From Salminus brasiliensis (taxonomy: Eukaryota > Chordata > Actinopteri > Characiformes > Bryconidae), in contig NC_132892.1 in assembly GCF_030463535.1 (NCBI RefSeq), positions 35,568,885 to 35,632,884 on the forward strand: a stretch of DNA of 64,000 bases. Direction: 5' to 3'. The notes beneath the pieces are model-generated. The model made no database searches, had not been told where the DNA came from, and worked only from the letters and a program-made list of their open reading frames with translations. Of the stretch, positions 1,536-64,000 are shown in pieces. Positions within the stretch are counted from its first letter, which is position 1. Each line of letters starts with the position of its first letter. The position numbers were made by a program, and so were the translations under genes.

Positions 1536-1727
1536 CAGAGGCCTCTGTGTGGAAGAAGAAGCGTGTGTGTGTGCGTATCGTTCCTGTGGAAAGTGTAACA
1601 ACCGCGATTCTGGACATCCGACTGACCACCAAGAGTAAAATGATGCTACAGCAATACACCTGCCTGGGGTGAGTGTGTGTGTGTGTGTTACAGGGATATG
1701 CTGGGTTGTGTACTGTGGTGTGTGATG

Positions 1728-1775
<48 letters not shown>

Positions 1776-1941
1776 AGGGATATGCTGGGTTGTGTACTGT
1801 GGTGTGTGATGACTGTGTGTGTGTGTGTGTGTGTGTGTGTTACAGGGATATGCTGGGTTGTGTACTGTGGTGTGTGATGACTGTGTGTGTGTGTGTGTGT
1901 GTTACAGGGATATGCTGGGTTGTGTACTGTGGTGTGTGATG

Positions 1942-1979
<38 letters not shown>

Positions 1980-2145
1980 AGGGATATGCTGGGTTGTGTA
2001 CTGTGGTGTGTGATGACTGTGTGTGTGTGTGTGTGTGTGTGTTACAGGGATATGCTGGGTTGTGTACTGTGGTGTGTGATGACTGTGTGTGTGTGTGTGT
2101 GTGTGTTACAGGGATATGCTGGGTTGTGTACTGTGGTGTGTGATG

Positions 2146-2199
<54 letters not shown>

Positions 2200-2235
2200 A
2201 GGGATATGCTGGGTTGTGTACTGTGGTGTGTGATG

Positions 2236-2289
<54 letters not shown>

Positions 2290-2325
2290 AGGGATATGCT
2301 GGGTTGTGTACTGTGGTGTGTGATG

Positions 2326-2361
<36 letters not shown>

Positions 2362-2803
2362 AGGGACATGCTGGGTTATGTACTGTGGTGTGTGATGACT
2401 GTGTGTGTGTGTGTGTGTGTGTGTTACAGGGACATGCTGGGTTATGTACTGTGGTATATGAAGGGCCCGTTCTCCACTCCTGTACCCCAGGCCAAACCTC
2501 GCAGTATCAGCCTTGACATGCGCAGCCTCTCCCTGGAGGCAGCCGGACCTCCTCTGCCCCTCAGACCCAGGTGTGTGTGATCAGATTAGATTAGATTAGA
2601 TTAGAGGTTTTAATCACTGATATCAGAATAATCACTAATAATATCACTCCTACAGAAAGTGGTGGAGGTTCTCCATCACTGTGTTCATCATTAGAACATC
2701 TCCAGAGTTCTCCTCATGGAGTCTAGTATTATTTAGAGTTCTCCTCAGATCAACACCTGGTTTGGTGGTAAATCAGGGCTTAATGATGGTAAATCAGGTG
2801 AGC

Positions 2804-2835
<32 letters not shown>

Positions 2836-4797
2836 ATGATGGAGTTGATTGAACACATCCTCCACGCTGTGCTGGCTGGACTGGGGGGCGTCCAGGAGAA
2901 CCCTGGAGGAACCGAGCTCTGTTCTTCAGACTAGCTCACCGACAAGATCTCACTACTTTCTTTCTTCAGGATGAGAAGCTCTTGTTTCTCCTTTTTACTG
3001 GATTTATGTTCAGCTGCTTTATCTGTTCTGATCAGATCTGGAGCTTCTGGAGCTTCTGCAGTAGAACCCTCTCACTGCTGAGAGACAGAGATTAATGGGA
3101 TGAGGGGTCTCTGAACAGTGCTGCCCACGCCCCGGTCTGACCCCTCTGGTGTGCTTAGCCACAGTTGTTATTGGTGATTAATGTGTTTTATCCTCTCAGA
3201 ACGTTCTGCTCCTCACTGTCTGGTTCTCCACAGCAATCAGCCTCCTGCTCCGCCCAAGGTCAGCCCCCGCCGCAGCACCTTAAAAGAGAAGGACACTAGG
3301 GCCGAGACTTTTAACGACAGCCTGAACGTCTACGGGATCACAGGTCTGTCCTCTACCTGTCTCTGTAACGGTCTGGGCTGATCTGCTGTTTGTGTGGCTT
3401 CTGTTTTACTGAGCTCTGTGTTGTGTTTCGCCTCAGCGATGGATGGAGTCCCGTTTGCGCTGCACCCGAAGTTTGAGTCCCAGTCTAACGGAAAGGTGAG
3501 GAACTACAGCTGATCACAGTCCAGCACCAGTCTCACTCAACAGCTCCTACTGAAGCTCTCTCGCTCTCCTGTCTCTCTCTCACACTCTGCCCCACCCCCT
3601 TGTATGTCTGTCTGCCTGTCTGTATCTATCTGTCTGCCTGTCTATCTGTCTATATGTCTGTCTCTTTGCCTGTCTGTCTCTTTGCCTGTCTGTTTGTATC
3701 TGTCTGTCTATATGTCTGTCTATTTGCCTGTTTGTATCTATCTGTGTGCCTGTCTGTCTGTATCTGTCTGTCTATCTCTGACTGTCTGTATCTGTCTGTG
3801 TGCCTGTCTGTCTGTATCTGTCTATATCTGTCTATCTGTCTGTATATGTCTGTCTGTTTGCCTGTCTGTATCTATCTGTGTGCCTGTCTGTCTGTATCTG
3901 TCTGTCTATCTCTGTCTGTCTGTATCTGTCTATCTGTCTGTATATGTCTGTCTGTTTGCCTGTCTGTATCTATCTATCTATCTATCTGTCTGTCTGTCTG
4001 TCTCTGTCTGTATCTGTCTATCTGTCTGTATATGTCTGTCTGTTTGCCTGTCTGTATCTATCTGTGTGTCTGTATCTGTCTATCTGTCTGTATCTGTCTG
4101 TCTATCTCTGTCTGTCTGTCTGTATATGTCTGTCTGTTTGCCTGTCTGTCTGTATCTGTCTGTCTATAAATCTATCTGTTTGTATCTGTGTGCCTGTCTG
4201 TCTGCCTGACTCTATCTGTCTGTCTCTCAGGGATCTGTAGTGAAGCTGGATGATATCTGCATCAAATCCATCCATGACATTGAAAATGAGGTGAGATTTT
4301 AAAGAGAGGGTTTTTGCTTCTATGTGTAGAAAGTTTTTTATGTATGAAGTTTAAACTCGACTGGACTTTTCTGACTGGATTTATAAATCAGTCACAGTTC
4401 ATTTTCCCTTTAGTCTTTTCTGCTACTGGACCTTTAAGACTGATATATGTTAATGAGCTCAGTTTTAATTGGCTTGTGTGCCTTATTGTAAAAGCAGTCT
4501 GAGCTGAAAAACTCTTTCTAACTTCAGTGTGACCAGGTGGGACTCCGCTACTGTAGTCTGAGTAAATGTGTGTGTATAGAAATTGTGTATAGAATAATTT
4601 TATTTATTTATTTTTTTTATTACGCTCTGAACATTAAACTTTAACTGGATCCAATAAAAGAAAAAAAGTTCAGTGATTCAGTTTTTATTTAACTGTATTT
4701 AATTTGTCATTTTTTGTTTCTGCAGTATCACTACACATTTGCAGTGGAGGAGATGGCAGCTAAGCGTTCCCGCCCACTGATGACATCAAAATCATAA
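866..4797 (+). CDS. mvb12a: Multivesicular body subunit 12A, 3' eight exons (5' end outside window)
   Basis: Coding exons: 866-949, 1054-1153, 1539-1668, 2430-2570, 3234-3343, 3437-3495, 4231-4290, 4726-4797 (stop TAA). They join in one frame into 251 residues, all with GT-AG junctions. The product matches the MVB12A family: a MABP-type N-terminal domain ([10 protein letters not shown], then [11 protein letters not shown]), a middle segment [15 protein letters not shown], and a C-terminal UMA domain ([37 protein letters not shown]). Human MVB12A has about 30 residues before the equivalent of the first visible exon, so one or more 5' exons lie to the left. The known family role is as an ESCRT-I subunit that helps sort ubiquitinated cargo into multivesicular bodies. 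MVB12A fits better than MVB12B because of the [11 protein letters not shown]-like linker. Odd points: exons 1539 and 2430 are entered directly from (TG)n tracts, and the 2430 acceptor has been copied ten times upstream. Confidence 0.93.
1488..1534. repeat. (TG)n directly at the 1539 splice acceptor
   Basis: An uninterrupted TG tract of about 22 dinucleotides ends a few bases before the acceptor TATCAG of the mvb12a exon at 1539. There is no ordinary pyrimidine tract, so the TG run occupies the place normally bound by U2AF. Confidence 0.9.
1671..2429 (+). repeat. Exon-derived minisatellite carrying ten decoy 3' splice sites
   Basis: Ten tandem units precede the real exon at 2430. Each has a (TG)n tract, the acceptor TTACAG and about 37 bases resembling the start of that exon (GGGATATGCTGGG..., then TGATGACT). 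Exon-like starts are at 1694, 1778, 1846, 1908, 1982, 2048, 2112, 2202, 2292 and 2364. Unit length is 62-90 bases and varies only through the TG run. The last unit (2364) already has the GACATG and TTATGTACTG variants of the real exon, so it is the closest relative. The ORFs through this array are by-products of the repeat. Confidence 0.93.
3600..4226. repeat. CTGT/TCTA tetranucleotide-type microsatellite in mvb12a intron
   Basis: A 0.6-kb array of CTGT, TATC and TTTGCCTG variants runs to the acceptor CTCTCAG of the exon at 4231. It is pyrimidine-rich on the sense strand and so supplies a very long polypyrimidine tract. Three overlapping open frames rich in Cys, Leu, Ser and Val are repeat artefacts. 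Confidence 0.92.
4419..4565. repeat. Dispersed repeat B, copy 1
   Basis: The segment reads GGACCTTTAAGACTGATATATG, then GTTAATGAGCTC, a GATTGGCT-like piece and AAAGCAGTCTGAGCTGAAA. Related copies occur at about 5965-6220 and 7060-7165. This looks like a short non-autonomous element, but no clear ends or target duplication could be set. Confidence 0.5.
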
Positions 4798-8815: not shown

Positions 8816-11706
8816 ATGGAGGATCAAGCAGAAGGTCCGGCGTCCACCTCCCAGTCTAAAGTGATCTCCCACTCACGGTCCTCCATTACGGCCCAAAATG
8901 CTGGGGTTGCTAACGTGCCCCAGTTGACCAGCTGCAACGTTGGTTCTCTGAGCTTCAATTTTGCGTGTTCACGTAAGAAGGACTTTTATTTTGAAACTCC
9001 ACTTCGTTCATTTCTGCAGTGTTTTGATTTGAGAGCAGGCATACCTCGCTTTCCTGCTGTCCAAACGTCCTGGCTCTGTTTTAATTAAATGATAAAAATA
9101 TAGATTAAAATCGCACAACAAATATACAGACATATGAGCATAATGTATTAGCTATATATAAATAAGTAAATATATATATAAGTAAATAAGAAAGGTGGGG
9201 CGGCAATATGGAGACCATAGTACTCTTCTCTTCGCCTGAGTACTCTCAGAAGAGGAGGGTCTTCAGTCTGGGTTTGAGGACAGCGAGCGTTGGACTCTGC
9301 TGTTCGGACACCCAGGGGAAGTTCGTTCCACCACTTCGGTGCAGGACAGTAAAAAGTCTGGATGCTCGTCTTCCGTGGATCTTGGATCCAGGGGATGGCG
9401 GGTCGAGCCGAGCCGTACTTGAAGCAGGAAGGGCTCTTGGTGCAGATCGGCTTTTGATTGACCGTCGCCGTCAAGTACAAAGGGGCTGGCTGGTCCAGTC
9501 TTGGCTTTGTAGACCAGAGTCAGGGTCTGAATCTGATGTGGGCAGTTATTGGAAGTCATATCAAATTCTGCCTTCTTTTTCTTCTTCCAGCAATTGCTAA
9601 CCAGGCTCATCAGCAGGCTTCAAGTGCTGTCCCCCATATTGGTAAGTACCAGTAATGCACAGTAGACTGTAGGCATTACTGTAACTCTGATGATCAGTGT
9701 ATTTCTGCTGTATGTGTCCTGCCTTAACGGTCATTTGCTTTTTTTTTTTAACACGTAAACTTGCAGAGAGAGTCAGAGAGGAACTGAAATCGAGCTTCAG
9801 GAGAAAGTACGAGATGATCTTTGAGGGAATCGCTAGGAGAGGAAAACCTGCTTTACTGAGGAACATCTACTCAGAGCTCCTCATCATGGAGGGAGAGAGT
9901 CAGGGACTAAATATAGAACACAAATTCCGGCAGACTGACACTGATTTCAGGACGCTTCCCAAAGAGGACATGCAAATCAGCTCCAGTGACCTCTTCAAAC
10001 CTTTCAACATTCAGGGTCATGAAAGAGAAACTGAAGACATGCAGACTAACAGCGTCAAACCTCTGCAGTCTGAAGAAGCTGAGAGGAGACCTCCCAGAAC
10101 GGTGGTGACTATAGGAATCGCTGGCATTGGAAAAACAGTCTCAGTGCAGAAGTTCATTCTGGACTGGGCTGAGGGAAAAGCCAATCAGGACATTGATCTT
10201 CTGCTGGTGCTGCCTTTCCGTGAGCTGAACTCGGTCAGAGACAAGAAACACAGCCTTCATGAGCTTCTGCTCGACTTTCACTCTGAACTCAGAACATTTG
10301 TGGACACAAACTCTTACCACGACTGTAAGATTTTATTCGTCTTTGATGGTCTAGATGAGAGTCAGCTTCCTCTGAACTTTGGGTGGACAGACAGAGTCTC
10401 AGACGTCTCCAAACCAGCATCGCTGGATGAGCTGATGACTAACCTCATCGATGGGAATCTGCTTCCCTCGGCTTTGGTCTGGATAACGTCTCGGCCGGCC
10501 GCAATCGACAAGGTTCCTCCCCATCTCATCCATCGTATGACGGAAGTACAAGGATTCACAGACCTGCAGAAGGAGGAGTACTTCAGGAAGAGGGTCAGCA
10601 ATCCAAACTTGGCCAGTAGGATCATCTCACACGTGAAAGAGTCGAGGAGTCTTGAGATCATGTGCCATATTCCCATCTTCTGTTGGATCACGGCGACAGT
10701 CCTGGAACAGATGCTGAAGGGAGGCCATGAAAACATCCCTTCATCTCTTACTGAGCTCTACACACGGTTCTTACTCATCCAGACAAGTGAGAAAAAGAAG
10801 AAATACTGTGGGATGAGGGAGAACGACCCTTTGAAGGTGTCAGAAGAGGATGTTCAGCTCGTTCTTAAACTGGGTAAACTGGCTTTCGACAATCTGCAGA
10901 AGCACAACATTGTGTTCTCAGAAGACGATCTGAAAGAGTATGAGGTTGATGTGACCGAAGCCTCGCTGAGGTCAGGAGTGTTCACTGAGGTTGTCGGAGA
11001 GGAGGATCCAATGTTTTCTGAGAAGAAGTACAGCTTTGTGCACTTGAGCTTTCAGGAGTATCTCGCTGCTATCTTTGTCGTCCACCAGTTTGCTGACAGA
11101 GGAGAGAACGTGATGCAATCCGGTGGAAACAAATGTGCCACGACACGGCCGTTCAGGGACAGTGATGATGAGTATTTTGACGTTCCCTTGAGAGTTCCTC
11201 TGCAACGAATCTCACTGCACGATCTGCAGAAATGTGCCATTGACAAAGCCTTGACTAGTACCAGTGGGCATTTAGACCTTTTCCTTCGCTTCCTCCTTGG
11301 CCTCTCAATGGAGTCCAACCAGAAGCTGCTGAAGTCTTTCTCAGTAGGTGTAGAAAGTGGGCAGACGAGCATTCAGCAGACTGTCCAGTACCTCAAGAGC
11401 AAGCTCAGAGAGAACAGTGACGGAAGAATTTCGTCCTCCGAGCGATACATTAACCTCCTTCAGTGTCTTCTGGAGCTCAATGATCACTCAATGGCAGAAG
11501 AGATCACAAGGTCCCTTACATCAGACAGAGAAGCTGAGCACAGATTTACAGATGGGCAAATTTCCAGATTGGCCGAACTATTACATATGCTTGGGGACGA
11601 GCTAGACAAGTCTAACGAATTTCAAATGTTAATAGGTCGCCTTTCTGCGCGTCCTACAAGTCGGATATGGTCGGTCTTCCATGTTTTGAGACTCTTGTTT
11701 AGGTAG
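8816..11706 (+). CDS. FISNA-NACHT NLR-family protein (fish NLRC3-like group), no LRRs visible
   Basis: Three exons join in frame: 8816-8972, 9591-9641 and 9767-11706 (stop TAG), 715 residues. The first exon starts at an acceptor (8793) with ATG at 8816, so a non-coding 5' exon is expected upstream. Residues about 70-140 form a FISNA-type segment (RVREELKSSFRRKYEMIFEG). NACHT follows with Walker A GIAGIGKT near 186-193 and Walker B LFVFDGLDE near 259-267, then winged-helix/HD2-like sequence (FVHLSFQEYLAAIFVVHQFA; GHLDLFLRFLLGLSMESNQK). FISNA-NACHT proteins are a large fish-expanded group of cytosolic sensors; the ligand is unknown. Most members carry LRRs, and some a B30.2 domain, after this exon. 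Here the frame stops at 11706 and no LRR exon is recognisable before 13 kb. A possible donor (AG|GTAGTA) overlaps the stop, so a longer transcript is not excluded. Intron 1 carries a LINE fragment. Confidence 0.85.
9148..9560 (-). mobile_element. LINE 3' ORF fragment in NLR intron 1 (minus)
   Basis: The minus strand has open stretches with WWNELPLGVRTAES followed by RRREEYYGL. These resemble the C-terminal tail of L2/CR1-like non-LTR retrotransposon ORFs (W-N-LPL-VR pattern). The same 3' piece (GAGACCATAGTACTCTTCTC on the plus strand) recurs at about 19840 and 21685. Frames are broken, so it is a dead fragment. Confidence 0.6.
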
Positions 11707-23400: not shown

Positions 23401-26400
23401 TCTCTTCTCTCCACTGGAACAAATGCAGACGCTGTGATTGCCAAAATCAACCAGCGGCTCGACATGCTCACCCAACTGGAGGGAGGCATGAAAGGAGGGG
23501 GGCGCAACGACCGGTAAGGTGGACGCTGCTTTTGGGCTTGTTGCTCTTCCCCAGTGACCTTTCCAATTGCTTTTTATTTATTTATGTTTTGGTTGCCCTG
23601 ATCTTTTTAGCTAGACCCTTTTGAAGATGCCGTTTAAAGGTGTTGGTTTGAGACTCCCGAAACCGTTACATATGCAAATGCTTTAGCTACTCTCTCAAGA
23701 GATCGTTAGGTGGTCCCATTCTTTTCTTTCTGCCTGTAGTCTTTTAAAGAGGTCCGTAGTTCTTAACACCTCTTTGGCCTCATTGTTAGCATGCTGTTCC
23801 TTTTGTGCAAGGCCTCACTGGGATATAACGGCTTGCTGAGGTAGCTTGAGGTCATGATTTGTCGGTTTTTGCCCAAAGGAAAATTTTATTAAAGAAGTTT
23901 TGTCCAGCTTTAATGTCCCAGGTCAAATCACTGTGAAAGCTACAAGCTTTAATGCCAAGTGAAGTTTCCTCTGGTGTTCCTTAAAATGGCCAAGTGTGCA
24001 AAAGCATGAAAGGCTACCACAGAGTAGTTACCCTACAAGCTCTGTCTTTCTTTCTTAAAATAATTTGCATGTCACCAAAGCATGTTCTGTTGTCCCAGCT
24101 TTAGCAGACAGGTGTGGTCACCTTGGAGAACACCGCTTTAGATACGAGTGCAAGGATCACCGGTTTCAGAACTTCACTTTGCTTAGTCCTCCAGTATCCT
24201 ATGAGCTACCCGTATGTCTATTATAGCACTGTCACTCTGAAGTCCGTAACATGTGGCTTGTCTCCTCTTTGGCTGTGGTTTGCAAAGTACACCCACTGTC
24301 TGCCAAAGGATGTTCTGAAAATGATGCTGTCTCTAGTCCTCGTTTCCAGAATCCTCTGACTCGAACTCTCTCTCTTAAGATGCTGATTACATCTTGTCCA
24401 AGAGCAAAGGTGACCCAGTGTTGCATGACCGTCCAATGCATTCCCTTTTACTGACCTACATGCCCTGGTAAAGGGGCGTGTGTGTGATCCTCAACGGTTT
24501 GAGGAAGCCGTGTTGGTGTAAAAGTAACCTCCCTTTATGTAACTCATTCATATTTCTGCTAAATCCTGAGTCCTTCTCTTCCCTACGAGCTTGTATCCCA
24601 AATTTAGCACGGGCTCAGCTCTTCCCTACAAGCTTGTATCCCAAATTTAGCACGGGCTCAGCTCTTCCCTACAAGCTTGTATCCCAAATTTAGCACGGGC
24701 TCAGCTCTTCCCTACAAGCTTGTATCCCAAATTTAGCACGGGCTCAGCTCTTCCCTACAAGCTTGTATTCCAAATTCGCACGGGCTCAGCTCTTCCCTAC
24801 GAGCTTGTATCCCAAATTTAGCACGGGCTCAGCTCTTCCCTACAAGCTTGTATCCCAAATTTAGCACGGGCTCAGCTCTTCCCTACAAGCTTGTATCCCA
24901 AATTTGCAAGGGCTCAGCTCTTCCCTTCAAGCTTGTATTCCAAATTCGTAAGGGCTCAGCTCTTCCCTTCAAGCTTGTATTCCAAATTCGCAAGGGCTCA
25001 GCTCTTCCCTACAAGCTTGTATTCCAAATTCGCAAGGGCTCAGCTCTTCCCTACAAGCTTGTATTCCAAATTCGCACGGGCTCAGCTCTTCCCTACAAGC
25101 TTGTATTCCAAATTCGCAAGGGCTCAGCTCTTCCCTACAAGCTTGTATCCCAAATTAGCACGGGCTCAGCTCTTCCCTACAAGCTTGTATTCCAAATTCG
25201 CACGGGCTCAGCTCTTCCCTACAAGCTTGTATCCCAAATTCGCACGGGCTCAGCTCTTCCCTACAAGCTTGTATCCCAAATTCGCACGGGCTCAGCTCTT
25301 CCCTACAAGCTTGTATCCCAAATTCGCACGGGCTCAGCTCTTCCCTACAAGCTTGTATCCCAAATTCGCACGGGCTCAGCTCTTCCCTAGAAGGTGGCTG
25401 CAGCTGTATTTGGGCTTTAGCCATATGTAAAATTTCTAAGGGCTCGAGCACTTCCTAGCAGGCTTGGTGCAGCTGTATTTAAATTTTCAGGGACTTCCCA
25501 GCAAGGTTGGTAAAGCAGCATCCTGAATTTGCACGGGATACACATGGGATTGCATGGGTGAAGGCTATTCGGGTACCCCGTCCTTTTCCACAGCGCACCT
25601 GCTCTGACTGTCTGAAGACTGGTCTGATTGGTGTAGGGAATGGCTTGGATGAATGCTACCTGGGAAAACGCATCTCATCCACAGAAAGATGAATGTGCTA
25701 TCCTTTGACAGACTTAATAAATAAATAAATAGATAAATAATAATAATTGACCTCAACATCCAGGGAGAGAGTGAGGGTGAGTGACTGAAGGGGGAAATGA
25801 GAGACTGAGAGAAGGAAATTCGAGGTGCCACTGCTTCATCTCTGCGCCTCCCTCCCTCTGCAGGTTTGACCAGTACGAGTCTTTCGACTCGCGCTCCTCT
25901 GCCCTTGGCCCCCGCGATCTCTACAGATCCGGTAACTATGGTTACGGGGACTCCCGGGGCGACATGATGGCCCAGCGTGGAGGCATGGGCTTCGGGGGGA
26001 TGGGCGGAGCAGGAGGGGGCGGTGGCTTTGACAGCTCTGCCTCCTATGGATCCGCCAAAATGCGGCAGGCTCGAGACGCCTTCTCAGGCTCCGGCTGGGG
26101 GGCGGGACAGAGGTCCCCGCGCAGAGGCGGAGCGCCAGGGGGGCGCGGCTTTGGCCGTAGGCAAGAGCACGCAATGGGTGGTGGAGGTGGGCGGAGTGGG
26201 GGGCAAGGCCACTCCCCCTCAGGACGAGGCAAGCTGCCGTCGCTCCTGGCCCCCCGCATGTACCCCGACAGCGGGGCCTACCAGCCTCAGCATGGCTCCC
26301 AGGACTATCCTGTCCGGCACTTTGGAGGGGGCCCAAGGGTCAACAGACAACGCACCCACAAGAGACCCCTCAACCGAGTAAGTACCTCCAGCAAAGCACT

Positions 26401-39049: not shown

Positions 39050-41392
39050 ACTGCCAAACACAATCACAATCAGATCTCACCCTCACAATCAGACCTCACC
39101 CTCACAATCAGACCTCACCCTCACAATCAGATCTAAGCCTCACAATTAGATCTAACCCTCACAATCAGATCTCACCCTCACAATCAGGTCTAAGCCTCAC
39201 AATCAGACCTCACCCTCACAATCAGATCTAAGCCTTACAATTAGATCTAACCCTCACAATCAGATCTAACCCTCACAATCAGATCTTACCCTCACAATCA
39301 GATCTCACCCTTACTTATCTCACCCTCACAATCAAATCTTACCTTCACAATCAGACCTCACCCTCACAATCAGATCTAAGCCTCACAATTAGATCTAACC
39401 CTCACAATTAGATCTAACCCTCACAATTAGATTTAACCCTCACAATCAGATCTTACCCTCACAATCAGACCTCACCCTCACACTCAGATCTAACCCTTGC
39501 AATCAGATCTCACCCTTACTTATCTCACCCTCACAATCAGATCTAATCCTCACAATCAGATCTAATCCTCACAATCAAATCTAACCCTTACTATCAGATC
39601 TAACCCTCACAATTAGATCTAATCCTCACAATCAGATCTCACCCTCACTTATCTCACACTCACAATCAGATCTCACCCTCACAATCAGATCTCACCCTCA
39701 CAATTAGATATAATCCTCACCTTCACAATAAAATCTTACCTTCACAATCAGATCTCACCTTCACAACCCAGTCTCACCCTCACAATCAGATCTCACCCTC
39801 ACAATCAGGTTTCACCCTCACAATCAAATCTTATCCTCACAATCAGATCTAATCCTCACAATCAGATCTCACCCTCACAATCAGATCTAATCCTCACAAT
39901 CAGATCTAAGCCTCACAATTAGATCTAACCCTCACAATCAGATCTAACCCTCACAATCAGATCTCACCCTCACTTATCTCACCCTAACAATCAGATCTCA
40001 CCCTCACAATTAGATCTCACCCTCACACTCCAGTCTCACCCTCATAATCAGATCTCACCCTCACTTATCTCACCCTCACAATCAGATCTAATCCTCACAA
40101 TTAGATCTAACCTTGACAGTTAGATCTAACCTTCACAATCAGATCTCATGCTCACAATTAGATCTTACCTTCACAATTAGATCTTACCCTCACAATCAGA
40201 TCTCACCTTCACACCCCAGTTTTACCTTTACAATCAGATCTCACCCTCACAATCAGATTCCACCCTCACAATCAGATCTCCCCCTTACTTATCTCACCCT
40301 CACAATCAAATCTAACCCTTACAATCAGATCTAACCCTCACAATTAGATCTAATCCTCACAATCAGATCTCACCCTCACTTATCTCACACTCACAATCAG
40401 ATCTCACCCTCACAATCAGATCTCACCCTCACAATTAGATATAATCCTCACCTTCACAATCAGATCTCACCTTCACAACCCAGTCTCACCCTCACAATCA
40501 GATTTCACCCTCACAGTCAGATCTAAGCCTCACAATTAGATCTAACCCTCACAATTAGATCTAACCCTCACAATTAGATTTAACCCTCACAATCAGATCT
40601 CACCCTCACAATCAGACCTCACCCTCACAATCAGATCTAACCCTTGCAATCAGATCTCACCCTCACAATCAGACCTCACCCTCACAATCAGATCTAACCC
40701 TTGCAATCAGATCTCACCCTCACTTATCTCACCCTAACAATCAGATCTCACCCTCACAATTAGATCTCACCTCACACTCCAGTCTCACCCTCATAATCAG
40801 ATCTCACCCTCACTTATCTCACCCTCACAATCAGATCTAATCCTCACAATTAGATCTAACCTTAACAATTAGATCTAACCTTCACAATCAGATCTCACCC
40901 TCACAATTAGATCTTACCTTCACAATTAGATCTTACCCTCACAATCAGATTCCACCCTCACAATCAGATCTCCCCCTTACTTATCTCACCCTCACAATCA
41001 GATCTAATCCTCACAATTAGATCTAACCCTCATAATCAGACCTCACCCTCACAATCAGATCTTACCCTCACAATCAGATCTCACTCTCACAATCAGATCT
41101 CACCCTCACAATCAGATCTCACCCTCACAATTAGATCTAACCCTCATAATCAGATCTCACTCTCACAATCAGATCTCACTCTCACAATCAGGTCTCACCC
41201 TCACAATCAGGTCTCACCCTCACAATCAGACCTCACCCTCACAATCAGATTTCACTCTCACAATCAGATCTCACCCTCACAATCAGATCTCACCCTTACA
41301 GTTAGATCTTACCCTCACAATTAGATCTTACCCTCACAATCAGATCTCACTCTCACAATCAGATTTCACCCTCACAACAGCAACATTATGAT
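39050..41392. repeat. 19-base satellite, about 120 copies
   Basis: Unit TCACAATCAGATCTCACCC with frequent TAACCC, TAAGCC and TTAGATC variants. Many units contain the BglII site AGATCT. Longer segments are themselves repeated: ACTTATCTCACCC and CACTCCAGTCTCACC blocks recur in the same order near 40000 and 40770. It borders the assembly gap. Confidence 0.95.
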
Positions 41393-42344: not shown

Positions 42345-45300
42345 TGTCTTTGATCTGCTAAGCTTTTCACATTTCTATAGTGTGAATCTGACAGTTGTTC
42401 TTTACACTGTATCAGAATCATATGATGAATGGACCAATAGAAATGCTCTATTATGCCAGCAGTAATTTTATTTAACTCTACGTTCTACAGAATAAAAGTC
42501 CACTTTGTAACAGCTCAGATTTATTCAGTGTTTTCAGTAAATATTAGTTTTAAATGAAATTGTAATGATATTTAATTTAATGATTGAAGCTGATTTCCAC
42601 TGAATTCAGACTGACCCTGAATTTCTACCTTTGAGACGTTTTAACCTCTGAACTGTTGATGCTGTTGAGGGATGTTTCTGTTTTTGGTTTAGAAATTGTG
42701 CTTAGCTTCAAAAAAATCCAGGAAACAGAGAGACAGTCCTGCTACTGTTTGGCCTCGTAAAAGAAATCTGAATGAGTAAAATAAGGTGCAGTTAACTCTA
42801 CCATAAAAACTGCCCACCCTCCTGCCACTGCTATCTGTGTAATGACTGTCTAAGGACTGACTCTTAACTAGGGATGCACCGATCCGACTTTTTCAGTTCC
42901 GATACCGATACTGATATATAAACTTTACATATCGGCCGATACTCAATACAGATCTGATACCGTTGCTGAATTAATAAACTGTATACCTTACCATGTGGAT
43001 TGACTTTACTTTACTAACTTGGTAAAACAAAATATATCAAATTAACACAGAGATATAAATGTACTAAATTAATTTCAAATTTATTTCTAAAGCTATTTAT
43101 TTGTCACTAAAAATAAACAATGCTGCAAGACACAGCATTCAAATTCAAAATAAAACAATTAAAATATATTAAAATAAATCAAATATATTGGCCAAAACTG
43201 AAGTAGCTTCACTTTGTCAAACACACAGATTTTGCATCTCTACTCTTAACACTATTAACCATCATTACTCTCAATACTCTCACCATCACTACTGACACTA
43301 CTAACAGTGACCTTTATCAATAGTTCATAATGGTAGAGCGAGCATCACACTGAGCACTCTCTCACTCAAGTTCAGATAATCTTTACGCTAAGAAGCTGTT
43401 GAGAAACCTGGTCATGCTCAGTCAGAACTTTCAGAGCTGTCTTCTACACATCTAACACACATGAACATCCACGAATCGAAACTTCAGATAAACATCAGCC
43501 CACATGAGTGGAACATGAAGTAGGTGGGCTCCAGGTGGGCATGGGCTCTGAGTGGGTTTGTACATGTGTTGTTACTGGATCCCCCTAAATGGTCCCCATC
43601 GTTACAGCCCACCTTAATCTTACATACGTCCCATATCTAGGTCCACCATGTGCAGTGTTCAACCCAGATTGGGCCCATGCTTTACCCCTCCTGGTCCCAT
43701 CACTGACCCTGGTGGACATTCATATATATGAGGCCAACCTGGAATCTGAGGACAAGACTTTCTGGTCCCCAGCTGGGCCGGGAGCAGATGCCCCTTCATG
43801 TTACCCACCGGCGAGCCGCTGTGACTGTGCAGAGTCAACACTTCCTCTCCGCAGATTATCTATGGCCTCCTGCAGCTTGCTTATCTCCAACACTGCTCAG
43901 AAAAGAGGAAAGGGAAGAGAAGCAGCTCTGTGTTACTCTGGACCGGTGACTGAGCAAACAGTCAGAGACAGACGCTGACCCTTACTCTGGCTGCTGTCGC
44001 CGGCCTGGCACTTCGACGCCGTCAGATTCAGACTCTTATCATTCAGCTCAGCTTTCAGCGCATTCAGCTGCTGCTCCAGGTCTGCAGAGAAGAGGAGGAC
44101 ACAACGTATCTTAAAGACGTAGCACAGACCTAAACACCATCATACTCTATTAAACACCATCATACTCCACTAAACCCCATTATACTCTACTAAACATCAT
44201 CATACTCCACCCAATACCATCATTCTCCACTAAACACCATTATTCTCCACTAAACACCATAATACTCGACTAAACACCATCATTCTCCACTAAACACCAT
44301 CATTCTCCACTAAACACCATCATTTTCCACTAAACACCATAATACTCGACTAAACACCATCATACTCGACTAAACACCATCATACTCCACTAAACACCAT
44401 CATTCTCCACTAAACACCATCATACTCCACTAAACACCATCATTCTCCACTTAATACCATCATACTCCACTAAACACCATCATACTCGACTAAACACCAT
44501 CATACTCGACTAAACACCATCATACTCCACTAAACATCATCATACTCCACCCAATACCATCATTCTCCACTAAACACCATTATTCTCCACTAAACACCAT
44601 AATACTCGACTAAACACCATCATACTCGACTAAACACCATCATACTCCACTAAACACCATCATACTCCACTAAACACCATCATTCTCCACTTAATACCAT
44701 CATACTCCACTAAACACCATCATACTCGACTAAACACCATCATACTCGACTAAACACCATCATACTCGACTAAACACCATCATACTCCACTAAACACCAT
44801 AATACTCGACTAAACACCATCATACTCGACTAAACACCATCATACTCCACTAAACACCATCATTCTCCACTAAACACCATCATACTCCACTAAACACCAT
44901 CATTCTCCACTTAATACCATCATACTCCACTAAACACCATCATACTTCACCAAACACCATCATTCTCCACTACACACCATCATTCTCCACTAAACACCAT
45001 CATTCTCCAATAAACACCATCACTCTCCACTAAACACCATCATTCTCCACTAAACCCCATTATACTCTACTAAACATCATCATACTCCACCCAATACCAT
45101 CGTTCTCCACTAAACACCATCATTCTCCACTAAACACCATCATACTCCACTAAACACCATCATACTCGACTAAACACCATCATACTCCACTAAACACCAT
45201 CATTCTCCACTTAATACCATCATACTCCACTAAACACCATCATACTCCACTAAACACCATCATTCTCCACTACACACCATCATACTCCACTAAACACCAT

Positions 45301-48300
45301 CACTCTCCATTAAACATCATCATACACCACCAAACACCATCATACACCATCATACTCCACTAAACACCATCATTCTCCACTAAACACCATCATTCTCCAC
45401 TTAATATCATCATACTCCACTAAACACCATCATACTCCACTAAACACCATCATTCTCCACTACACACCATCATACTCCACTAAACACCATCACTCTCCAT
45501 TAAACATCATCATACACCATCATACTCCATTAAACATCATCATACTCCACTAATCACCATCATACACCACTAAACACCACCATTCTCCACTAAACACAAT
45601 CATTCTCCACAAAACACCATCATACTCCACTAAACACCATCATACTCCACTAAACATCATCATACTCTACCAAATACCATCATTTTCCACTAAACATCAT
45701 CATACTCCACCAAATACCATCATTTTCCACTAAACACCATCATACTCCACTAAACACCATCATTCTCCACTTAATACCATCATACTCCACTAAACACCAT
45801 CATACTCCACCAAACACTCATCATACTTCACTAACCACCATCATTCTCCACCAAACACCACCTTCCCACTCTGAATACCACCATCCTACTCCAAACACCA
45901 CCATCCATATTTTCTGAATATTAAGTGAAGGTTGACTACCACTGACATCCCACTGCTCTGTTCTGGGCTACTGCTGGAACTCACTTGTGATCTTAGTATC
46001 GTCCCTCTCCACCGTGATTTCCACCTCCAGCTTCTTCATGTCGATGTACTTCTGGAGAATGACCAGGACTGTGGAAAACAAACTCAGGGTTAAAACCATA
46101 CTACCATCCATCACAAGTCCAAAGGTTTGTAGATGCCTCCTGTTACAAGTGAGTTCAGCTGATTTCAGGTGGCTGACCCAGGTGTTGACACACAGCTGTA
46201 TAATCTCTGTATGTACACACTGTGCCAACTCACACACTGATGTTCTACATACCTTCTTTAGCAGGACCTGTGGTTTTAGTTCCCAGCTGCTTCAGCAGAC
46301 TGTCCAGCTGAGCCTGGAGAGCTGCACAAAGCAATCAGCAGTCAGTCTGAGCTTCATGGTACACAGCTGTAGCAAAAGTCTGCGATGACCCCGATGATGT
46401 GATGTGTATTAAAGATGCAGGAGGTGCGATATTATGATACTGTATAAATATATCGCAATCCTTTCAAATCGAATTTTCATCAAATCAGAGTACAACACTG
46501 CCCTCTAGTGGTTGGGGTTTAAACACTACACTAAATGAACCACTGTCAGACTCCAATCTTTACATCTAAACTATTAATTAATAATCAATACTGTGTTTCT
46601 GAGGATCGATACAGTACTGCAGGACAGAATACCACAACTTCCCAATCAATATTGTCTTCCACCTGATCTGTACGGGTAAATAAGCCTTATACTATATATA
46701 TATAAATATATGGTTAGTGTGGTGCGACAGATGACACCACTACCTGCCAGTTCGATTCCCGGGCTGGGTGGCTATCCTGCGCTACAATAAGGGTCCTTGG
46801 GCGAGAGTCCTAACACTACATTGGCCCTCCTCTGTAATACGAGTAACCTTGTAAGTCGCTCTGGATTAGAGCTTCAGCTAAAATACCATAAATGTAAATA
46901 TAGAGACGCACTTCTGCACCTTTCAACACACGACTACTGTTTATTTCCTGCATGTATCAAAACTCAAGAACAGTAAAACATGGTGTATTCCACATCTTAC
47001 GCTTCATCCTCTTCTAACACTTTAGTAAATGTAGTAAATTAACAGAGATTGAGTCTAAAATGTGCAGAAAACCGTCCTATTCGAGCTTCTGCATCGGGCT
47101 GTTTACCACTCTACTGTCCATCCCCTCACACACAACCAGAGTGATGACGTACCTGAGATCTGCATCTTAGCCGCATTAATTGAACCCATGCACTCAATCT
47201 TCAGCTGTCTCAGCTGCCTCTTCAGAAGGAAGACCTCCTTCTCTGCAGAGGGACACAGCAGGGTTAAACAGGGCTTCCTTCTTTTCTGAAGTTACCATTG
47301 CAAAGATATGAGGTTTCAGTTGTGGCTTGAGGAGCTGGAAATGAACCTAAACCATGAGATTCGATCTGCAGAACCCAAAAATGCTTAGTTGAACCCTGAG
47401 CAAGGAGGGGTTACACTGTTCTAGGGTCAATTTGACAGTTCTTGCCTTTAGCAATTAATCAATTAATATTCATGTAATCCATATTCACTTATTCCCTCCT
47501 TACAAATCACTGTTTATTTATAATAATCCACTAATTTCTAACTAAAAATGGTGACGTTGTGGTTTTCAGTACATCAGGCTTTATTTATTCTTATGTATTT
47601 AGACCTGGCCTTGCAGATTTGGCTCCTCTCCTCCCTCCCATTAATATGAATGTGTCTAGTAGTTGATGGCTGTTGACCCTCGCTGTTTGACCTTCACTTT
47701 AAATATTCATCATCTCTTTCTGCATCTTTAAAAAGGGTCAGTTAGCCCTGCAGCCGGAGGGTTACCAGGGTCCTGATGCATGAATAAAGGTAGTGTCAGC
47801 TGGGCTCACCAACGGTAAGGGTGTATGTATTCTTCGCCGTCAGCCTGTCGTTGCAGTCCTTCAGCTCCACCTCAATACCTGCAGCAGAGAGCAGACCAGT
47901 CCACACCCTCAGATCAACGCCAGCACGTCACTCCCTTCACTGAAGCAGCAAACACTGAGACTGAGCTCTTATCCTGACACTGCAGGCTATCACACTCTGA
48001 CTATTCACACCGGTTCAGACAGACAGGTGTACGGGCTGTTCCTCCTCAGCTAGGCCTCCACAGACCAGCCTGCAGGTTTACATAAAGACATGTCAATCAC
48101 AGTCGGATGACTCCGCCCCCTGAGAAGCCTTTAGTGGGATTTATTCCTGTTTTGCTATTCCTTTGTTATTGTTATGATCCGGAGCCGAGCAGAGGAGGAC
48201 GGGTTCCCCTCTTTGACCCAAAAGAGGCTCGGACCCGGGTCTCTGTAAAGCTGCTCTGGGAGAACATTCATTGTGAAAAGCCTAAATAAATCAATCAAAT

Positions 48301-48807: not shown

Positions 48808-51800
48808 TTGCACTGAACCTTTATAAGATCCATCTTAAAATCTAGAACAATATAGGTAATACAGAAAAATATAGGCGATAATGAGATCTGCAGATAAGTG
48901 CACATAAGGACTCTGTTTTGTGGAAATATATGTATAAAAATTGGTTAGTTAAATATATATCTATATATACATATATTTATTTTCCCAAAACAGTGTATAT
49001 TTATATGAGAACTTAAAGAACAGCTATTATTGCTTAAATAGTTCTTTGACTGATTGCATAAAAAAAACATAGTTATACATGGTTCTATATAGCACCAACA
49101 AAGGTTCCACTATTGTGGACCTGTTTCCGTGCTGTACAGAACCCTCAGGGCTTTGGATGTAGCTGTACAGGAATGGTGGTGTTTATATAGTAGTTATTTA
49201 TCATAAGTATTTGGACTTTGGCTTGTTTTATCACTTACGCTGCTTAGTAAGTAAATAAGGGTTCTCTAGTGAAATCAGTGGTTCTGTTTAGAACCATGAC
49301 AGCTCGAAGAACCATTCGGATGCTATGTCTGGTTCTTTGGATAGAAGAAGAAGGTTCCACTGTTGTTAGGAGTTGAAATGTGGGTTCTATCTCTTTAAAT
49401 TCATCTACTCACCATTACAGAGCTGTTTGTATGTAGTCTGAGTGAAGGTGGACAAAAAGAAAAACAACAGGATTGTTAGTGCTTATCCAGTATGAATTCA
49501 GTTCATTACACTGACTAACAATCACACTTACCTCTACAGTCTCATCTTCTTCATGTATCGGTAGATCTCCAGGCATTGGCACTAGAATGAACAAATTAAT
49601 GAATAAACACACAAACAAACAAACAAACAAACAAACATTACAAAATAACATGTTTCTAAGTGCCACACAGCACAACACTATATTTACATAAAAACATATG
49701 TCATGTTATTAGAGCTTCATACTGGATATTAATGTTATTAGAGCTTCATACTGGATATTAATGTTATTAGAGCTTCATACTGGATATTAATATTATTAGA
49801 GCTTCATACTGGATATTAATGATATTAGAGCTTCATTCTGGATATTAATGCTATTAGAGCTTCATACTGGATATTAATGTTATTAGAACTTCATACTGGA
49901 TATTAATGTTATTAGAACTTCATACTGGATATTAATGTTAATAAACATCATACTGGATATTAATGTTATTAGAGCTTCCTACTGGATATTAATGTTAATA
50001 AAAACTATACTGGATATTAATGTTATCAGAGCTTTATACTGGATATTAATGTTATCAGAGCTTTATACTGGATATTAATGTTATCAGAGCTTTATACTGG
50101 ATATTAATGTTAATAAAAATCATACTGGATATTAATGTTATTAGATCTTCATACTGGATATTAATGTTATTAGATCTTTATACTGGATATTAATGATATT
50201 AGAGCTTCATACTGAATATTAATGTTATTAGAGCTTCATACTGGATATTAATGATATTAGAGCTTCATACTGAATATTAATGATATTAGAACTTCATACT
50301 GGATATTAATGTTATTAGAGCTTCATACTGGATATTAATGCTATTAGAACTTCATACTGGATATTAATGTTATTAGAGATTCATACTGGATATTAATGCT
50401 ATTAAAGCTTCATACTGGATATTAATGCTATTAGAGCTTTATACTGGATATTAATGTTATCAGAGCTTTATACTGGATATTAATGTTAATAAAAATCATA
50501 CTGGATATTAATGTTATTAGATCTTCATACTGGATATTAATATTATTAGAGTTTCATTCTGGATATTAATGTTATTAGATCTTTATACTGGATATTAACG
50601 ATATTAGAGCTTCATACTGGATATTAATGTTATTAGAGCTTCATACTGGATATTAATGATATTAGAGCTTCATACTGAATATTAATGTTATTAGAACTTC
50701 ATACTGGATATTAATGTTATTAGAGATTCATACTGGATATTAATGTTATTAGAGCTTCATACTGGATATTAATGCTATTAGAGCTTCATACTGGATATTA
50801 ATGTTAATAAAAATCATACTGGATATTAATGTTTTTAGAGCTTCATACTGGATATTAATGTTGTTAGAGCTTCATACTGGATATTAATATTATTAGAACT
50901 TCATACTGGATATTAATGTTATTAGAGCTTCATACTGGATATTAATGTTATTAGAACTTCATACTGGATATTAATATTATTAGAGCTTCATACTGGATAG
51001 TAATGTTATTAGAACTTCATACGGGATATTAATGTTAATGAACATCATACTGGATATTAATGTTATTAGAGCTTCCTACTGGATATTAATGTTAATAAAA
51101 ACTATACTGGATATTAATGTTATCAGAGCTTCCTACTGGATATTAATGTTATCAGAGCTTTATACTGGATATTAATGTTAATAAAAATCATACTGGATAT
51201 TAATGTTAATAAAAATCATACTGGATATTAATGTTATTAGATCTTCATACTGGATATTAATGTTATTAGAGTTTCATTCTGGATATTAATGTTATTAGAT
51301 CTTCATACTGGATATTAATGATATTAGAGCTTCATACTGAATATTAATGTTATTAGAGCTTCATACTGGATATTAATGATATTAGAGCTTCATACTGAAT
51401 ATTAATGTTATTAGAGCTTCATACTGGATATTAATGTTATTAGAGCTTCATACTGAATATTAATGCTATTAGAATTTCATACATGATAGTAATGTTATTA
51501 GAACTTCATACTGGATATTAATGTTATTAGAGCTTCATACTGGATATTAATGCTATTAGAACTTCATACTGGATATTAATGTTATTAGAGATTCATACTG
51601 GATATTAATGCTATTAGAGCTTCATACTGGATATTAATGTTATTAGAGCTTCATACTGGATATTAATGCTATTAGAATTTCATACATGATAGTAATGTTA
51701 TTAGAACTTCATACTGGATATTAATGTTATTAGAGCTTCATACTGGATATTAATGCTATTAGAACTTCATACTGGATATTAATGTTATTAGAGATTCATA

Positions 51801-52672
51801 CTGGATATTAATGCTATTAGAGCTTCATACTGGATATTAATGTTATTAGAGCTTCATACTGGATATTAATGATATTAGAACTTCATACTGGATATTAATG
51901 CTATTAGAACTTCATACTGGATAGTAATGTTAATAGAACTTCATACTGGATATTAATGATATTAGAGCTTCATACTGTATATTAATGTTATTAGAGCTTC
52001 ATACTGAATATTAATGCTATTAGAGCTTCATACTGTATATTAATGTTATTAGAGCTTCATACTGAATATTAATGCTATTAGAGCTTCATACTGGATATTA
52101 ATGTTATTAAAGCTTCATACTGGATAATAATGTTAATAAACATCATACTGGATATTAATGGTATTAGAGCATCGCACTGGATATTAATGTTTTAGAGCTT
52201 CATACTGGATATTAATGTTAATAAAAATCATACTAGATATTACTGTTATTAGAACACCATTCTGGATATTAATATTATTAGAGCTTCATTCTGGATATTA
52301 ATGTTAATAAACTTCATAGTGGATATTTATGTTATTAAAGCTTCATACTGGATATTAATGTTATTATATTTTTATACTGGATATTAATGTTATTAAAGCT
52401 TCATACTGGATATTAATGTTATTATATTTTTATACTGGATATTAATGTTATTAAAGCTTCATACTGGATATTAATGTTATTATATTTTTATACTGGATAT
52501 TAATGTTATTAAAGCTTCATATTGGATATTAATGATATTATCTTATATTTCTGAGTGAGTGTTCTACAGGTAGTGTATGAAATGGTAGAGCAGTCTTACC
52601 ACTGAGGGCCACGGAGGAGCAAATGAAGGAGGACCACAGAGAACAGAGCAGGAGCAGCTGAATCCAGCCCAT
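41593..52672 (-). CDS. Unrecognised secreted modular coiled-coil protein, 3' end not found
   Basis: Minus-strand coding exons: 52600-52672 (ATG), 49532-49581, 49413-49437, 47810-47878, 47153-47242, 46253-46321, 45985-46068, 43986-44081, 43809-43892, 42183-42260, 41795-41881, 41593-41679. Frame and GT-AG junctions hold throughout. The first exon encodes MGWIQLLLLCSLWSSFICSS, a signal peptide. From 47810 on, every exon begins and ends in phase 1 and encodes 23-32 residues with heptad-like Leu/Ile spacing (LQAQLDSLLKQL; LEQQLNALKAELNDK; LERQLAEKLKKLDG; LQDQLKVKKTLLSDL), then a short polar spacer. Extracellular or secretory-pathway location is inferred. The last exon has a good phase-1 donor (CTCA|GTGAGC). 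Without splicing the frame would stop at 41462, but further exons beyond the satellite or in the gap are more likely. I do not recognise the family. Confidence 0.75.
42869..43242. mobile_element. hAT-like MITE with perfect 8-base target duplication
   Basis: The 374-base element starts TAGGGATGCACCGATCCGAC and ends GCATCTCTA. The ends form a short inverted repeat (TAGGGATGCA / TAGAGATGCA). CTCTTAAC flanks both sides (42861-42868 and 43243-43250), as expected for hAT insertion. It splits an older repeat related to 7164-7330. Confidence 0.85.
43490..43800. repeat. Probable dispersed repeat next to a coiled-coil exon
   Basis: GGTGGGCTCCAGGTGGGCAT, then CAACCCAGATTGGGCCCATG, resembles a repeat I know as frequent in fish introns. 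It ends at the splice donor of the exon 43809-43892. Identity not firm. Confidence 0.35.
44110..45880. repeat. 20-base satellite, about 85 copies
   Basis: Unit TAAACACCATCATACTCCAC with CATTCTCCAC, TACTCGAC and TTAATACC variants, grouped in recurring blocks. It fills the intron between the coiled-coil exons 43986-44081 and 45985-46068. Confidence 0.95.
46706..46900 (+). mobile_element. tRNA-derived SINE, plus strand
   Basis: The B-box region is CAGTTCGATTCCCGGGCTGG. The tail TGTAAGTCGCTCTGGATTAG, then CAGCTAAAATACCATAAATG, is the common teleost SINE 3' end (usual form GTAAGTCGCTTTGGATAAAA). It lies between the coiled-coil exons 46253-46321 and 47153-47242. Confidence 0.75.
48130..48305 (+). 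mobile_element. LINE-type 3' tail
   Basis: GAGCAGAGGAGGACGGGTTC, CTCTGTAAAGCTGCTCTGG, ATTGTGAAAAGCCTAAATAA and a terminal AAATAAATAAATAA run. It is related in plan to 7440-7640. Confidence 0.5.
48505..48810. repeat. Compound TTC/TTA/TAG trinucleotide microsatellite
   Basis: (TTC)n is followed by (TTA)n, interspersed TAG runs, and a final (TTA)n. It lies in a coiled-coil-gene intron. Poly-Asn and poly-Tyr ORFs are artefacts. Confidence 0.92.
49050..49385. repeat. Probable MITE-like GGTTCTATATAGCACC repeat
   Basis: ATGGTTCTATATAGCACCAA near the left, and GAACCATTCGGATGCTATGT then CTGGTTCTTTGGATAGAAGA near the right, look like degraded inverted ends of a GGTTCT-type fish element. No target duplication set. 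Confidence 0.35.
49695..52545. repeat. 29-base satellite, about 98 copies, in the first intron of the coiled-coil gene
   Basis: Unit ATTAGAGCTTCATACTGGAT plus ATTAATGTT. Variants include AATAAAAATCATACTGG and CAGAGCTTTATACTGG, arranged in longer repeating blocks. It ends about 55 bases before the splice donor of the signal-peptide exon. Confidence 0.96.
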
Positions 52673-63301: not shown

Positions 63302-64000
63302 GTGTGTGTATGTATATATGCATATATAACTTGAACAAGTATAAATTTAATGTATTATTAATAGCTTGATCTGTCTTTGTTTAATCTGAATGTCATTAAT
63401 TATGAATTATTGGACTGCTGGTCGTCCAAATATTTATGACCCATACCTTCTTTTCTTTTTGTGGTAAAAATAGTATGCGAACACATTAAAGAGGAGCCTG
63501 AATCAGAGGAGGAGCCGCTGCAGAGAGACCGTGGCACCCAGAAATCTCCAAACAGCTTCAGTGACGCGTCCCGGCTGAAAGACGAAGGCCCGAGAATTCA
63601 TACCGGGGCAGAACCCTTCACCTGCCAGCTGTGCGGGAAGGGTTTCAGCGCGGTGAGGGCTCTTAAGCGACACCTGGAAATGCACGAAGGAAAGAGACCC
63701 TATCAGTGCTCTCGGTGCGACTGGAGCTTTGCACGCTTCCCAGACCTCAAACACCATGAAAAGATTCATACTGGAGAAAAGCCGTTCAGCTGCTCCGAGT
63801 GCGGGAAGGGTTTTTTAAAAGCCAGCCGCCTCAAAGTCCACAAGATGCTTCACACCGGAGAGCGGCCGTTCACCTGCACCGGGTGCGGGAAGCAGTTCCT
63901 GCAAGCAAACAACCTTAAATCCCACATGAAAATTCATACCGGAGAAAAGCCGTTTCGCTGCTCCTTCTGCGGGAAGAATTTCCTGAGGTTGTTTGAGTAT
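62452..64000 (+). CDS. C2H2 zinc-finger protein, 5' part (runs off the window)
   Basis: Exon 62412-62608 has the ATG at 62452 ([20 protein letters not shown]), a run of about 17 Glu and a short Ala/Met stretch. It ends in phase 1 at GAAG|GTTGGT. The next exon starts at 63474 after AAATAG and is open to the window end. It encodes [19 protein letters not shown], then C2H2 fingers starting [76 protein letters not shown] and [10 protein letters not shown] (cut). Linkers are HTGEKPF/HTGERPF except HEGKRPY after the first finger. This is a nuclear DNA-binding factor by family. VKQE and IKEEPE match SUMO-type psi-K-x-E motifs, a common feature of poly-zinc-finger repressors. Confidence 0.88.
63228..63299. 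repeat. (AT)n microsatellite
   Basis: About 36 uninterrupted TA dinucleotides in the intron before the finger exon at 63474. Confidence 0.95.

Follow-up and report, generated by a model that had tools for sequence, protein, structure and literature searches.

A tandem array of 3' splice sites and exon starts in the mvb12a gene of Salminus brasiliensis, a probable mirage-type minisatellite

We analysed a window of 64,000 nucleotides from the genome of Salminus brasiliensis (assembly GCF_030463535.1, contig NC_132892.1, positions 35,568,885 to 35,632,884 of the forward strand), and all positions given here are counted from its first nucleotide. The first gene in the window is mvb12a, whose start precedes the window. 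The eight exons lying inside it (table 1), when joined, give an open frame of 251 residues with a stop at its end, which constitutes the in-window part of the protein. This spliced product matched the Pfam family PF10240 (Multivesicular body subunit 12; E = 8.6e-76, profile positions 22-253 of 253) and, in the PDB, the entries 3tow (MVB12B; 2.7e-16) and 6vme (MVB12A peptide; 1.6e-5); on these matches, the gene assignment made in a first-pass annotation of the window holds. The alignment to the MABP structure of MVB12B (3tow) has its C-terminal end in the part encoded by exon 2430-2570.

Near mvb12a, a 670-codon open frame (9694-11703, + strand) with FISNA, NACHT, NOD2_WH and NLRC4_HD2 domains represents an exon of a fish NLR gene, the FISNA domain being fish-specific. 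Two C2H2 zinc-finger frames lie at 56844-57779 (- strand) and 63440-64000 (+ strand). The other seven of the ten frames scanned had no match in Pfam, and a search of the whole window against Rfam at gathering thresholds returned no match. The window also contains a 42-bp repeat at 24576-25393 (19.3 copies, 96%), most of which is spanned by an open frame of 217 codons (24737-25387, + strand), the unit length being a multiple of three, and minisatellites at 39064-41377 (19-bp unit, 123 copies), 44130-45860 (20-bp, 87 copies) and 49703-52540 (29-bp, 98 copies).

The intron in front of exon 2430-2570 contains ten tandem units, in which the 3' splice site and the start of the following exon are repeated ten times. 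Each unit opens with 26 nt from the exon start, continues with intron sequence ending TGTGTGATGAC, followed by (TG)n, and closes with TTACAG, directly after which comes the next exon-like start or, after the last unit, the true one. The first-pass annotation had described ten units of this kind, and all of them were located, with decoy starts from 1694 to 2364. The exon copy that it had put at about 37 nt is present, but its length is exactly 26 nt, the final 11 being intron sequence that holds TGATGAC. Its proposal of a tandem amplification of a 3' splice site together with the beginning of the exon is supported, the 26-nt exon piece and the intron sequence being present in 10 of 10 units. 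The exon-edge copies reach BLAST E-values as low as 6.6e-35, which excludes chance. A 120-nt query made of unit plus exon found ten matches in the species' own 1.07-Gb assembly, all of them in the array, in a search that skipped simple repeats and very common words and so does not prove absence elsewhere.

Table 1. Features of mvb12a and of its array-bearing intron (window positions)
Feature	Positions	Strand	Remarks
mvb12a exons in window (n = 8)	866-949, 1054-1153, 1539-1668, 2430-2570, 3234-3343, 3437-3495, 4231-4290, 4726-4797		
Exon upstream of array	1539..1668	+	ends CCTGGG, then gtgagtgtgt; open spliced frame, PF10240 match
Phase-2 intron, 761 nt	1669..2429	+	donor GTGAG plus array
Unit 1 (84 nt)	1694..1777	+	acceptor 25 nt past exon end, no TGATGAC between
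Unit 2 (68 nt)	1778..1845	+	decoy out of phase; intron to 1778 of 109 nt
Unit 3 (62 nt)	1846..1907	+	decoy out of phase
Unit 4 (74 nt)	1908..1981	+	decoy in phase, stop at 2011
Unit 5 (66 nt)	1982..2047	+	decoy out of phase
Unit 6 (64 nt)	2048..2111	+	decoy out of phase
Unit 7 (90 nt)	2112..2201	+	decoy in phase, open, +106 codons
Unit 8 (90 nt)	2202..2291	+	same sequence as unit 7; decoy in phase, open, +76 codons
Unit 9 (72 nt)	2292..2363	+	decoy in phase, open, +46 codons
Unit 10 (66 nt)	2364..2429	+	sole unit 26/26 identical to exon; decoy in phase, open, +22 codons
TGATGAC, branch-point-like motif before true acceptor	2393..2399	+	A to AG 31 nt
True exon, 141 nt	2430..2570	+	source of the copied 26 nt
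Tandem arrays before acceptors	142-846, 1489-1533, 3601-4225		AT-rich, 19 nt from acceptor; TG, 5 nt; TGTC, 5 nt

A 36-nt core is identical throughout units 1-9, and unit 10 differs from it at two places. Compared with the exon start, unit 10 is the same at all 26 positions and units 1-9 at 24 of 26, the differences falling at exon positions 4 and 15. The 11 TG tracts, with 7, 21, 13, 10, 16, 12, 11, 24, 24, 15 and 12 repeats, show nine different lengths. The acceptor 23-mer (-20 to +3) is identical at all 11 sites and accompanies TTACAG in every one of the ten units. TGATGAC, a branch-point-like motif, occurs once per unit (starts 1723, 1807, 1875, 1937, 2011, 2077, 2141, 2231, 2321 and 2393), its A lying 27-55 nt from the AG. 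It scores 5 of 6 against U2, the highest score within 75 nt upstream of each of the three acceptors tried, but this is a weak indication, since a score of 5 is also reached in four of seven other introns. As far as can be read from these motifs, a full 3' splice-site module is present at nine decoy acceptors, from 1778 to 2364, and the true exon depends on unit 10 for its own branch-point-like motif, TG tract and AG. The first acceptor, at 1694, is probably unusable because of its closeness to the exon end and the lack of the motif in front of it.

The array is best read as a fish example of a 3'-boundary mirage minisatellite, as suggested by a repeat unit that crosses the intron-exon boundary and takes in part of the exon (ten units), by intact splice signals in the units (10 of 10) and by an internal homogenisation that excludes the edge unit (units 1-9 versus unit 10). 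In amphioxus, mirage minisatellites are described for Adh3, the globin genes BflGb6 and BflGb9, TnC and PGBD5, with reported variation in length; like the mvb12a array, they are tandem repeats lying across an intron-exon boundary, many of their units carry AG or GT signals, and the edge unit escapes homogenisation (PMC3087553, PMC3902484). The two systems differ in their hosts, a fish and a lancelet, in unit length (62-90 nt in mvb12a, whereas BflGb6 has 150-160 and Adh3 10-72) and in unit number (ten, against the 6 and 3 given for two BflGb6 haplotypes) (PMC3087553, PMC3902484). Unlike these mirages, the mvb12a array combines a TG tract with a branch-point-like motif in every unit. Within the part of the open-licence PMC literature covered, no vertebrate was found for which a 3'-boundary mirage had been reported.

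Since the same 23-mer stands at 11 acceptors, a score over -20 to +3 cannot separate them, and the choice must come from the wider context. U2AF and U2 could see 11 equivalent sites, of which 2430 alone opens a normal exon that reaches a donor after 141 nt, and this site would be selected by exon definition. The decoys, each with a mere 26 copied exon nucleotides behind it before UG repeats follow, would largely stay silent, although slower splicing or out-of-phase products would cause some loss. We therefore favour as probable, from the arrangement of the sequence, a mirage-type minisatellite in which exon definition picks 2430, the decoys stay mostly silent or compete mildly, and the whole is a by-product of repeat mutation rather than an evolved switch. 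Older work found the donor-proximal of two equal acceptors to be favoured; here this would be 1778, which is out of phase, and the preference counts against our explanation. Should donor-proximal decoys dominate through intron definition, as with the 109-nt intron to 1778, the gene would be held down by nonsense-mediated decay or would be in the course of being lost. Acceptor 1778 does have the full module, with the A of TGATGAC 49 nt before the AG and 21 TG repeats, and the resulting length is plausible for a short intron. The rest of the in-window reading frame, however, is intact and matches the family, which argues for the use of 2430, and dominance of the proximal decoys appears very unlikely.

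The decoys at 2112, 2202, 2292 and 2364 had been noted to lie 318, 228, 138 and 66 nt from the true exon start, all multiples of three, with open frames in between, and this was confirmed; the deduced inserts of 106, 76, 46 and 22 codons were also correct and would give products of 357, 327, 297 and 273 residues instead of 251 for the in-window protein. Likewise, 1908 is in phase but stopped at 2011, and the remaining decoys are out of phase or stopped, 1694, 1778 and 1846 at 1875, 1875 and 1937, and both 1982 and 2048 at 2514, inside the exon. Unit length equals 42 + 2n, and phase is kept only with a TG number divisible by three. If the last tract lost one TG, 1846 alone would be in phase; if it gained one, 1694, 1778, 1982 and 2048 would be, and either change would put all four of the in-phase, open decoys out of phase. 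Six of the ten unit lengths are divisible by three (binomial P = 0.077). The probability that the nearest four decoys are in phase was 0.071 by shuffling the lengths and 0.089 by redrawing the tracts, and it falls to 0.012 only if each decoy is taken as independent at 1/3 and the four are named in advance. Moreover, units 7 and 8, both among the in-phase four, are identical, so that fewer independent events lie behind the run. Selection for decoy phase is thus unsupported, the P values of 0.071-0.089 being conditional on the tract lengths of one haplotype from one species.

Each in-phase variant would add one or more strongly hydrophobic Cys/Val segments. The 19-residue hydropathy maxima are 3.11, 3.11, 2.73 and 2.41 for the products of 2112, 2202, 2292 and 2364, against 1.2 in the normal protein. 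Non-overlapping windows above 1.6 number 6, 4, 3 and 1 in these products, and the normal protein has none. From their composition, the inserts look harmful rather than useful. Because phase depends on single TG repeats, the run of four is within chance and the inserts are hydrophobic, the MVB12A length variants suggested in the first-pass annotation find no support as regulated products, and functional isoforms from the decoys are, on the predicted products, unlikely. In its specific form, in which these four acceptors would yield working MVB12A proteins extended after the MABP domain, the proposal has correct phases and open frames on its side, and the first copied piece repeats the last MABP-aligned stretch, so that it could supply the last strand and the domain might still close, judging from the alignment to 3tow. 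Given the hydropathy, the loss of all four phases with one TG and the phase statistics, such proteins seem highly improbable.

The TG counts decide all phases, which gives weight to the question of whether copy number and counts were assembled correctly, or whether the whole array is an error; one globin mirage of amphioxus was apparently misassembled in the draft genome (PMC3087553/PMC3902484). Simple stuttering, however, does not make units that differ in tract length and an edge unit with a sequence of its own, the assembly is in few contigs (103 for 1.07 Gb), and other long arrays are present in the window. An assembly artefact is very unlikely.

What several equal acceptors may do to each other can be seen in duplicated beta-globin substrates, the tracts of which are not known to be UG repeats. 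When the 3' splice site of beta-globin intron 1 was present twice and its first copy carried 14, 55 or 205 nt of exon behind it, splicing in vitro was reported as very inefficient and confined to the distal site (PMC5389562), the latter speaking for the choice of 2430. These substrates resemble the mvb12a array in that one 3' splice site is repeated and the first copy is followed by a piece of exon, and differ from it in being engineered, in having two copies and in being spliced in vitro (PMC5389562). The same source reports that two strong 3' sites can be occupied at once and that concurrent occupancy by U2AF or U2 inhibits splicing, and it notes earlier reports that the length of exon after the first acceptor copy affects the choice (PMC5389562). 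From this in-vitro precedent, competition of the decoys for the spliceosome is plausible, and the inefficiency of the duplicates argues against a harmless array.

In humans, the ABCA7 intron 18 VNTR has a unit that carries the exon 18 donor, and transcripts keeping one unit are reported at 2 +/- 1%, indicating that decoys in repeats need not be silent (PMC5954066). Like the mvb12a array, it is flush with an exon and has a splice site inside the unit, making a decoy possible per unit; it differs in lying on the 5' (donor) side, in its 25-bp unit and in being described as intronic, with no exon copy mentioned (PMC5954066). Effects on splicing and expression were measured for ABCA7, greater VNTR length going with lower expression and with increased exon 19 skipping (PMC5954066).

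All 11 TG tracts of the mvb12a intron, that of the true site included, have at least seven repeats. CFTR exon 9 and apolipoprotein AII have a single acceptor each and are not known to have duplicated exon sequence. Like mvb12a, these TDP-43-bound (TG)n splice sites have UG repeats near the splice site, and at least six UG repeats are reported to be needed for strong binding by TDP-43 (PMC3985631). Taken together with concurrent occupancy and the ABCA7 expression data, this would fit a length-dependent sink, in which up to nine usable extra acceptors and their UG tracts bind U2AF, U2 and TDP-43 jointly, splicing is cut and array length sets mvb12a output. On the other hand, splicing is reported to proceed undisturbed in amphioxus despite the mirages in Adh3, globin and TnC (PMC3087553, PMC3902484), which also favours the reading of mostly silent decoys, and UG binding gives the decoys no special status, a tract of this type being present at the true site as well; we regard a sink of this kind as unlikely. 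Rather unlikely, too, is a further extension, a self-made, length-variable splicing brake, in which complete 3' modules would load several U2AF, U2 and TDP-43 molecules, copy number would tune mvb12a output and TG slippage would switch the in-phase decoys, so that individuals would differ in amount and possibly in isoforms.

Elsewhere in the same assembly, PF10240 matches over the cut-off were found at two mvb12b-like paralogs, one on C1, with exons that closely resemble MVB12B in 3tow by eye, and one on C6. Both have an intron at the same place and in the same phase (..TFIG | E..), of 377 and 266 nt, and no exon-edge copies were found within 1.5 kb of these introns. AG dinucleotides number 19 in the intron on C1 and 13 in that on C6; the mvb12a intron has 12, of which the donor accounts for one and the acceptors for 11. 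Because the paralogs share place and phase and have no exon-edge copies, the intron is, by this comparison, old and phase-conserved and the array an overlay on mvb12a. The creation of a new intron by tandem duplication is rejected on the same shared position and phase.

The segment present ten times in tandem begins shortly ahead of the branch-point-like motif, takes in the TG tract and TTACAG, and ends with exon nucleotide 26. At the junction, the exon (..ACTGTGG) is followed by TGTGTGATGAC, and this one junction suggests mispairing of exon TGTGG with the intron TG tract. An illegitimate exchange between the two may have produced the first duplication, giving unit 10, which is still identical to the exon; a copy carrying two substitutions would then have been amplified to nine, and TG slippage would continue to alter the unit lengths. 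The 36-nt cores of nine units are identical, yet the 11 tracts have nine different TG counts; these features point to a recent amplification and to slippage faster than substitution, so that the simplest reading of the sequence is a history of one duplication, two substitutions and a recent amplification.

Intron copies with at least 12 exon nucleotides were sought at 69 other stretches (30 myosin-head, 30 kinesin, 2 mvb12b-like and 7 other mvb12a) and found at none, while exon 2430-2570, as a positive control in the same test, gave ten matches each time. The myosin-head and kinesin places were the best-scoring 30 of 175 and 30 of 138 matches, and the survey places are Pfam stretches plus 40 nt rather than proven exons, several holding stops and one (L032) being a single stretch of 2034 nt. 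Flanks of 1.5 kb on each side were covered for 62 loci and of about 3 kb for mvb12a. One kinesin place (L078) has a 23-nt repeat that lies in an intron by our reading. In mvb12a, exon 4231 had a 79% match with 8 exon nucleotides that is part of the TGTC array, and exons 866 and 1539 had 16 and 10 matches, all with fewer than 12. A genome-wide habit of exon-edge copying is rejected, as a common habit only, on these 69 myosin, kinesin and mvb12 places.

Three more mvb12a introns, before exons 866, 1539 and 4231, have a tandem array at their end, stopping 5 to 19 nt short of the acceptor, and no exon copies of at least 12 nt were found in these arrays. With the main array included, four of eight mvb12a introns end in this way (P = 0.034 when the same arrays are placed at random).

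The mvb12a intron holds ten natural copies of one acceptor, with the same -20 to +3 sequence and with varying place, TG length and downstream sequence. It thus offers a clean test, in a living gene, of whether exon definition or closeness to the donor decides. The array would extend the mirage phenomenon, which we found described for lancelets, to a fish, where a series of alleles could be obtained by breeding and then measured. Should array length affect splicing, this would be a simple route by which a minisatellite may change the dose of an ESCRT-I gene.
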